A stretch of 64,000 bases of DNA, taken from positions 1-64,000 of the forward strand of contig NZ_QEWP01000014.1 in assembly GCF_003121985.1 (NCBI RefSeq), given 5' to 3'. Shown here piece by piece: positions 6,356-48,915 of the stretch (within the stretch, counting starts at the first letter, position 1; each line of letters begins with the position of its first letter). The notes below the pieces were generated by a model that was not told the DNA's origin, did not search any database, and saw only the letters and a list, made by a program, of their open reading frames with translations. Origin of the DNA: Marinilabilia rubra. Lineage in GTDB: Bacteria; Bacteroidota; Bacteroidia; Bacteroidales; Marinilabiliaceae. Position numbers and translations under genes: made by a program.

Positions 6356-6555
6356 CTCCTGTCAAACAAAAGTGGTCTCCTGCCACTACATAATGGTCTC
6401 CTGCCGGGGCAACACCCGCTCCCTGCTGCCTTATCATGGTCTCCTGCCGATGCATTGACCGCTCCTGTCGCCTGATCATGATCTCCTGCCGGGATATTAT
6501 GGTCTCCTGCCGGATCTTCTAACTTCTCCTGTCGGAGGGGAACCCTCTCCTGCCG
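6356..6555. repeat. Helically phased array of ten CTCCTGCC-type motifs (21-22 bp pitch)
   Basis: Ten copies of a core close to CTCCTGCCG start at 6356, 6377, 6398, 6419, 6441, 6462, 6483, 6504, 6526 and 6547. The steps are 21,21,21,22,21,21,21,22,21 bp. The 12-13 bp between cores are not conserved. The 22-bp steps break any reading frame, so the periodicity is not a protein repeat. An inverted core, GGCAGGAG, follows at 6577-6584. The array fills the gap between convergent genes ending at 6307 and 6596. Confidence 0.85.
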
Positions 6556-48002: not shown

Positions 48003-48189
48003 TTTATTGGGTGCTTTGTTGAGGGGCTATTTTATGTTCTTTCTAGCATTTAAACTTAAGATTGCGTTGTCTGCTTGAGAATATTACGTCACGGATTCCT
48101 TATATGTGATCTGGATTTAAATTAAAATCTTCATTATTTTTCGGACGGGACTTAATTTTTTTAATATGATGGTCTAAGTAATACCATAT

Positions 48190-48399
48190 GAGTATTTTCC
48201 CTTCGCTTACCATTCGTCCCGCCGTCGAAACTGCTTCGGTCCTGCTTCGTAACAGCTTCGGTTGTTGTTCGTTCAGGCTTCGTTCCCTTATAAGCGAAGG
48301 ATAACCGAAGAACAACCGAACAAACCACGAATCTGCCTCGAATTTGTCCCGGAGCAGGGGCGAAGCAGAACCGAATAATGAAGATTTGGTCGAATACTC
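48190..48399. repeat. Palindromic array of 16 TTCG/CGAA sites on an exact 11-bp pitch
   Basis: TTCG (one site GTCG) begins at 48202, 48213, 48224, 48235, 48246, 48257, 48268 and 48279. Its reverse complement CGAA (one site CGGA) begins at 48295, 48306, 48317, 48328, 48339, 48350, 48361 and 48372. Every step within each half is exactly 11 bp, and the halves mirror each other about position 48288.5. The 7-bp spacers are mostly unconserved. Flanking GAGTATT (48190-48196) and AATACTC (48393-48399) are inverted copies. An 11-bp step rules out a coding repeat. Confidence 0.9.
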
Positions 48400-48915
48400 G
48401 TGTGGGGTGAACAGCATTTTGGTGTTAGAGACAACCATAAAATACCGGATGTTAAGGTGTTTTAGCTGTAATGGTTTGGTAATGAGGTTGTAATTTTGCT
48501 GATCGGGGCTAAGTTATCGGATGACAGGTGTTTAGGTGGTTGAACCTTGTTGGTGATTCAACAAATGCAATAAAAACCAGATCCTCTTGAGTGTTGATAA
48601 TTAGTTGTTTGTTGATTGTTTCTGAAATTCATGTAAGATTACCGGAATATTTTTTTATGAAAAATCCACTTACATTGCGCTTATCAATCGATTGAAGAAG
48701 CAGGGTTACCGGAATGGTTATCGCTTGGTTACCGAGCTATTGTTGAACTTTAAAACGATTTGAAATGAGTAGAAAACTGTTGTTAATTCCAGGCCAAACA
48801 GAGGCTGAGGGCCTCATACGGAGGAGGGGAGGAATTCTATAAGTGGCGGATGAAAACCGCTCCCATGTTAATACCGGGGTGAAAATCCAGGCAAAAGGAG
48901 AAGAACAATTCATTT

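Follow-up and report, generated by a model that had tools for sequence, protein, structure and literature searches.

The locus considered here lies in a 64,000-nucleotide window of Marinilabilia rubra (contig NZ_QEWP01000014.1, positions 1 to 64,000, the whole stretch being called the window below), and it raises the question of what a mirrored array of evenly spaced tetramers, situated between convergent genes, represents. Fourteen of the sixteen TTCG/CGAA sites are exact, with a pitch of 11 bp and a mirror axis at 48288.5 (Table 1), just as the preliminary description of this DNA had stated. When exact sites were counted within an 8+8 mirrored frame, the window array scored 14, a value that none of 100 dinucleotide shuffles of the full window approached (range 2 to 4). 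Across the whole genome, a four-unit pattern with at most one mismatch gave 37+37 matches, versus 3+2 for the pattern read backwards. The pattern stands far above both the shuffled and the reversed control, so that the refuting condition of the preliminary description (a pattern no more frequent than in shuffled sequence) does not apply, and the array is confirmed as genuine.

Table 1. Coordinates of the array and associated features in the window.
Feature	Coordinates	Strand	Description
Left arm	48202..48282	.	Eight TTCG sites, starts 48202+11k, k=0-7; 48224 is GTCG
Array centre	48283..48294	.	12 bp, TTCCCTTATAAG, between both arms
Right arm	48295..48375	.	Eight CGAA sites, starts 48295+11k; 48350 is CGGA
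Leader-like right flank	48376..48784	+	Homologous to paralogue C45c (L064) and partly to the C2 leader (L059)
14-bp perfect inverted repeat (14/14)	48125..48138 and 48374..48387	.	Off the array axis

Homologous arms are present in the other array copies of this genome; the 14-bp inverted repeat was not seen in the aligned sister copies and is perhaps incidental. The preliminary description had also suggested the body of a mobile palindrome ended by GAGTATT and AATACTC. This is not supported, as these 7-mers (48190-48196 and 48393-48399) are centred at 48294.5, off the array axis, and the sister copies share the array and part of the right-hand leader. Its view that the array is not a CRISPR agrees with the 4-bp core, the 7-bp spacers, the inverted arms and the lack of long identical repeats. 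A coding origin was rejected: a 112-aa minus-strand ORF spans the array, but a repeat of 11 bp cannot stay in one frame, and we judged the ORF spurious on that ground. A phage or plasmid element was likewise rejected, the window array having no match in phages or plasmids. Elsewhere in the window, tandem repeats of 21 and 42 bp occur at 6356-6493.

The genome carries about ten TTCG-class arrays on seven contigs (grouped from pattern matches), and the shorter ones mostly have CTATAG at their centre. At two places a long array has a short one of another subclass close by, 170 bp away in L062 (2642-2848 and 3018-3093) and 98 bp away in L063 (5167-5252 and 5350-5547). Scanning the GTDB genome collection with a 3+3 inverted pattern matched at least 117 array stretches, and among the matches listed 114 of 117 were from Bacteroidota, with hosts spanning Chryseobacterium, Sphingobacterium, Bacteroides and Marinilabilia; the exceptions among those listed were from Synergistaceae (L088), Hormoscilla (L093) and Thermoanaerobaculia (L126). 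Six stretches of the viral_contigs collection also matched the array pattern. Exact four-unit runs were found in 19 of 100 relatives searched, the genome of the window being counted among the 100 and one relative (G004) being of the same genus. Judged from these matches, the arrays appear to be a class found almost only in Bacteroidota. The unit consensus is TTCG-R-NNN-T-T-S, derived from 148 distinct arrays that were chosen on TTCG. In four Sphingobacterium loci (L143, L166, L187, and L123) long arrays lie 8-107 bp from an ORF start, and the upstream-extended ORF reads through the array. By eye, the central loop often looks complementary to a stretch of one flank (L112, L121, L122, L146, L158, and L151), as in L112, where the loop is ATGGG and the flank CCCAT.

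One protein family accompanies these arrays. We scanned against Pfam the proteins whose genes start (68) or end (61) toward an array within 400 nt, which were drawn from 75 and 69 with the largest and a few others left out. DUF6266 was the one outstanding neighbour family, accounting for 5 of the 68 gene-start neighbours when the 25 best families of 116 and of 93 were compared. We then applied a motif-free test to 47 distinct DUF6266 genes, taken from named as well as related genomes, with 1.2 kb of sequence on each side, using a strict criterion (at least five identical columns in four consecutive copies) and a loose one (four columns); the criterion was fixed after the first loci had been inspected, and a phylum-wide sample served as an independent repeat. 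Under the strict criterion an array of pitch 11 lay upstream of 29/47 genes and downstream of 0/47, counts that related genomes inflate (7 of the 29 array-bearing loci are from Chryseobacterium) and that include one T-rich low-complexity stretch (L228). The repeat gave 8/20 upstream and 0/20 downstream, its 20 loci including the C8 gene of this genome and one locus with 2 nt of upstream sequence. With the loose criterion the values were 36/47 upstream and 1/47 downstream (11/20 and 1/20 in the repeat), over a background in which other pitches from 7 to 16 reach 3-15/47 upstream; among the seven loci gained in this way, some resemble chance or low complexity. Strictly defined arrays at other pitches were found at 0-4/47 genes, except for pitch 10 at 11/47, and the repeat behaved similarly (4/20 at pitch 10 and 0-1 at the remaining pitches); eight of the 11 pitch-10 cases come from Chryseobacterium, in loci that have a 10-bp repeat distinct from the array. 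Runs of this 10-bp repeat (GGTCAAAACC-like) stand upstream of DUF6266 beside TTCG arrays in L205, L207, L208, L210, L211, L212, and L217, and another Chryseobacterium locus, L215, in which the upstream sequence is cut short, has the 10-bp repeat alone.

By the strict criterion 18/47 and 12/20 DUF6266 genes have no array (three and one of these, respectively, with little upstream sequence). Where an array is present, its distance to the open frame is about 100 to 940 bp, which is loose for a classical operator. At the level of whole genomes, DUF6266 is present in 12 of the 197 other genomes of the phylum-wide sample. Among the relatives, it occurs in 16/19 array-bearing versus 24/81 array-less genomes (p = 3e-5, kinship ignored), and within the family in 15/18 array-bearing genomes versus 17/42 others (p = 0.004, kinship again ignored). 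Three genomes have arrays and no DUF6266 match: G003, which is 99% complete, and G032 (81% complete) and G049, each with a single array match.

The motif at the fixed pitch is not always TTCG/CGAA. Upstream of DUF6266 genes we also found TAAAGTC, CCGTATCAAGT, CGGATAAAAGC, ACGTATGAAAC, and others; the motif varies with the DUF6266 lineage and the 11-bp pitch is constant. A second class is present in this genome, TTAAAGTC, with 18 matches (three mismatches or fewer) at eight places and 0 for the reversed control. One of its arrays (C8:44038-44089) is situated about 200 bp upstream of the C8 DUF6266 gene. Arrays of this class have an AT-rich centre and are mirrored by eye; L283 has TTCG-like outer units in register with its TTAAAGTC units. 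Each class in this genome therefore has one copy upstream of a different DUF6266 gene (TTCG on C2, TTAAAGTC on C8) together with dispersed orphans, and the same arrangement is seen in the relatives G001, G002, G004, G014, G042, and G058. No convincing array accompanies the third DUF6266 gene of this genome (C45, L219), and the CCGTATCAAGT class was not dispersed among 100 relatives, which yielded two overlapping matches that form one array beside DUF6266 in G086. Motif similarity tracks that of the DUF6266 proteins (Mantel rho 0.34, p = 0.0006; 24 loci left of the 29 after dereplication, L228 among them), a signal that joint inheritance alone could explain.

The copy in the window is an orphan as judged by alignment, consisting of array and leader without the DUF6266 operon genes, because its clear similarity to C2 stops at the ATG at 48765, which corresponds to the C2 operon start codon (L059:5830), and no trace of the two operon genes was found. 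The window copy aligns with C45c over 604 bp at 79% identity and with C2 at 87% across the array and 77% across 103 bp of the leader. A profile search with stops read as X detected no remnants of the small-membrane and DUF6266 genes at the window locus; of the remaining array loci that were searched, L059 and L283, both of which carry DUF6266, were the only ones with a trace of either gene. Most arrays look like orphans, since just 7 of the 117 array stretches listed hold a strong DUF6266 match, though many of the loci scanned are cut short.

If such orphans are control regions left behind after loss of the module genes, and now without function, the window and C45c copies are what would be expected: both are without operon genes and have the same right-hand end near the start codon. 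We nevertheless consider such relics unlikely, because between these two copies the TTCG cores are far more conserved than the leader, with 2/64 differences in the cores, 13/110 in spacers and centre, and 96/406 in the leader (core versus leader, p = 4e-5; core versus spacer alone, p = 0.054). An orphan array orthologous between two Chryseobacterium species is also more conserved than its flanks (2/81 versus 42/224 differences, p = 1.5e-4; within the array, 0/28 in the core and 2/53 in the remainder). The five long paralogues of this genome, of which the window copy has exactly one 11-bp unit fewer than the other four, differ at 19/640 core positions (3.0%) and 213/980 spacer positions (21.7%), and gene conversion among paralogues may be a source of the core conservation. 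Free drift of spacing and tetramers, which the preliminary description had named as the sign of a chance or decayed repeat, is seen neither in the paralogues nor in the window/C45c pair or the Chryseobacterium orthologues.

The same description had offered two versions of a face-of-helix constraint, DNA bound by a cooperative protein or RNA in which 11 bp is one A-form turn. Of these, the bound DNA stays the leading reading, with binding itself deduced from the pattern, and the structured RNA or double-stranded hairpin has been weakened to the point of being quite improbable. For both strands the predicted fold is indeed more stable than those of dinucleotide shuffles (z = -5.6 and -5.0), but the complementarity of TTCG and CGAA would by itself lower the folding energy. 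Core letters of mirrored units agree in 97-99.7% of 398 comparisons per position (148 arrays, selected on TTCG). For spacer letters the agreement is 38-61%, just slightly higher than the 35-56% found with other units of the same array. In the mirror register of the five copies, compensatory changes occur in 0/49 spacer column pairs, and for 21 of them the pairing holds in some copies but is lost in others. With the register shifted by -11, compensatory changes do appear in 5/42 spacer pairs (1/42 at +11, 0/35 at -22, and 1/35 at +22), which leaves a shifted fold a small probability, and some relatives, for example L082, L104, and L142, are near-perfect hairpins by eye; the window itself had no Rfam match at the gathering score (0 matches). 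A pairing of spacers 48257-48267 with 48310-48320 had been reported, and it is real for 48257-48266 with 48311-48320, while 48267/48310 is a G.G apposition. Judging by the core and spacer difference counts and the absence of compensatory changes in the mirror register, constraint acts on the core and the pitch but not on pairing in that register.

The C2 module begins with the array, followed by a leader of about 400 bp, an 81-aa membrane-type ORF, and DUF6266. Comparable small ORFs precede DUF6266 in several genomes, and a profile of them found no such ORF away from DUF6266 loci. The genes after DUF6266 include DUF5675 (L204, L240), a member of a phage-holin family (L225/L294), and endolysin-family matches (CHAP in L297, phrog_873 in L294); many other DUF6266 loci have no holin-, endolysin- or DUF5675-like neighbour. 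In L294 (4354-7011), which is arrayless by our criterion, DUF6943, DUF6266, holin-like, endolysin-like, and lipoprotein-like genes stand in a row, with a universal-stress-protein gene downstream. We use "lysis-type" for such modules to denote the apparent resemblance of some of the neighbour genes. The predicted model of DUF6266 (mean pLDDT 80, residues 1-36 below 50) has a low-confidence N-terminus, two helices, and an FnIII-like sandwich, with no recognised DNA-binding domain. Tail proteins and proteins with FnIII domains are among its best-ranked viral matches. With L149 and L206 as queries DUF6266 itself was not matched in phages, nor was it in plasmids (one query, L149) or in viral contigs (one query, close relatives only), and it showed no transposase match. 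The protein encoded to the left of the window array had no relative in the genome scan. In keyword searches, no open-access paper named DUF6266, and none described the arrays in its title or abstract.

The dispersal of the arrays suggests a further explanation, compatible with protein binding, in which they are a non-autonomous mobile repeat (with or without the leader), propagated by a system that has the DUF6266 module as its autonomous form, in the way that REPINs probably depend on RAYT transposases. About ten TTCG arrays and eight TTAAAGTC places, with one per class upstream of DUF6266, would fit, as would the array and leader common to the window and C45c, their shared sequence being bounded on the left by the end of the array. 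Apart from DUF6266, no neighbour family was prominent among the best 25 of 116 and 93 families, and neighbouring genes occur in all orientations (52 tandem, 32 divergent, and 21 convergent among the 105 arrays with both neighbours called, based on crude ORF calls; 43/148 lie at edges). The same count led us to reject an intrinsic (bidirectional) terminator, for which convergent neighbours are too few relative to divergent and tandem ones. We regard mobility as somewhat unlikely, as no transposase or recombinase was seen in the module, whose DUF6266 product is predicted to be FnIII-like, and no target-site duplication was evident by eye. Nor was a clean empty site found: the genes flanking the window array had no same-genus match at the thresholds used, and the Chryseobacterium site comparison is syntenic on one side only.

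Two known types of dispersed element invite comparison. REPs are short palindromes linked to tyrosine transposases (RAYTs). Neither a RAYT nor another transposase was among the best 25 of the 116 and 93 neighbour families (68 + 61 neighbours). The REP/REPIN-RAYT systems, as outlined in PMC3116915, resemble the arrays in being dispersed extragenic inverted repeats with classes tied to linked protein genes. The arrays differ from REPs in being long, with 11-bp units and unpaired spacers, and linked to DUF6266; paired hairpin units of the REP type were not found, the mirrored spacers being without compensatory pairing (49 column pairs, five copies). The BrickBuilt MITE of Porphyromonas gingivalis is also intergenic in a member of the Bacteroidota, with a varying number of tandem units enclosed in an element that has inverted-repeat ends, according to the account in PMC4596501. 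That account, however, gives it 23-nt units, no mirrored arms, IS5-family-like terminal repeats, and a limited host range, whereas the arrays have 11-bp units, mirrored arms, a phylum-wide distribution, and a link to DUF6266. No common terminal repeat beyond the array, as expected of MITE-type ends, was noticed in the own-genome copies.

On balance, it seems probable that the window feature is an orphan copy of a cis-acting array belonging to a DUF6266 module and bound cooperatively once per helical turn, with the binding, the binder, and the function all deduced from sequence comparison. A protein of either the module or the host would make one base-specific contact per helical turn, touching the cores from one face of the DNA, and would fill both arms cooperatively in mirror orientation so as to form a nucleoprotein patch. 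Such a patch may control the adjacent operon, and orphan arrays may stay bound and be kept for that reason, as further control sites or decoys. The mirrored arms would imply assembly toward or away from the dyad. A pitch of 11 bp is near one turn of B-DNA, and over eight units the cores would fall out of phase by about 4 bp if the DNA were not unwound slightly, as it would be in a filament. A module-specific binder is more likely than a general chromosomal protein, given that this genome contains two classes, each with a copy adjoining its own DUF6266 gene, although G003 keeps arrays without a DUF6266 match.

The fixed pitch also recalls the centromere-like parC sites of plasmids, in which case the arrays might be identity tags recognised by a ParR-type protein, with motif divergence preventing cross-reaction between modules. 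The parC of plasmid R1 likewise consists of 11-bp repeats, at least two of which are required by its ParR, and repeat sequence and spacing vary between ParR systems, others having repeats of 10, 17, or 20 bp (PMC9426499). The 11-bp repeats, and a pitch in the arrays that stays fixed as the motif changes, speak for this reading, but parC as presented there comprises plasmid-borne direct repeats next to par genes, unlike the inverted arrays, which occur in many copies and on contigs that reach chromosomal size. Together with the lack of plasmid and phage matches to the window array and of a plasmid match to DUF6266 (for the one query used), and with no ParM or ParR noticed beside the arrays or in the DUF6266 neighbourhoods listed, this makes a parC-like role very improbable.

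Mirror-image arrays of 11-bp pitch are apparently an undescribed class, for which none of the known kinds compared (REP/RAYT, MITE, parC, terminator, Rfam RNA, and CRISPR) was found to fit completely, and we know of no family that shares its parts; if the binder were an ordinary cooperative repressor, the class would be less new. We propose, as a tentative extension that may well prove wrong, a two-part recognition system in Bacteroidota, in which each DUF6266 module would have a private array whose pitch is fixed and whose motif diversifies with the protein, while orphans retained by selection would serve as docking sites, so that a once-per-turn filament could wire one lysis-type module to many chromosomal places. 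An invariant pitch with variable sequence is an unusual class of site, and points to a helical nucleoprotein assembly. An array class that spans the phylum and is tied to the uncharacterised DUF6266, with genes resembling those of holins and endolysins also linked to it in some genomes, would give both the arrays and this protein family a testable function.
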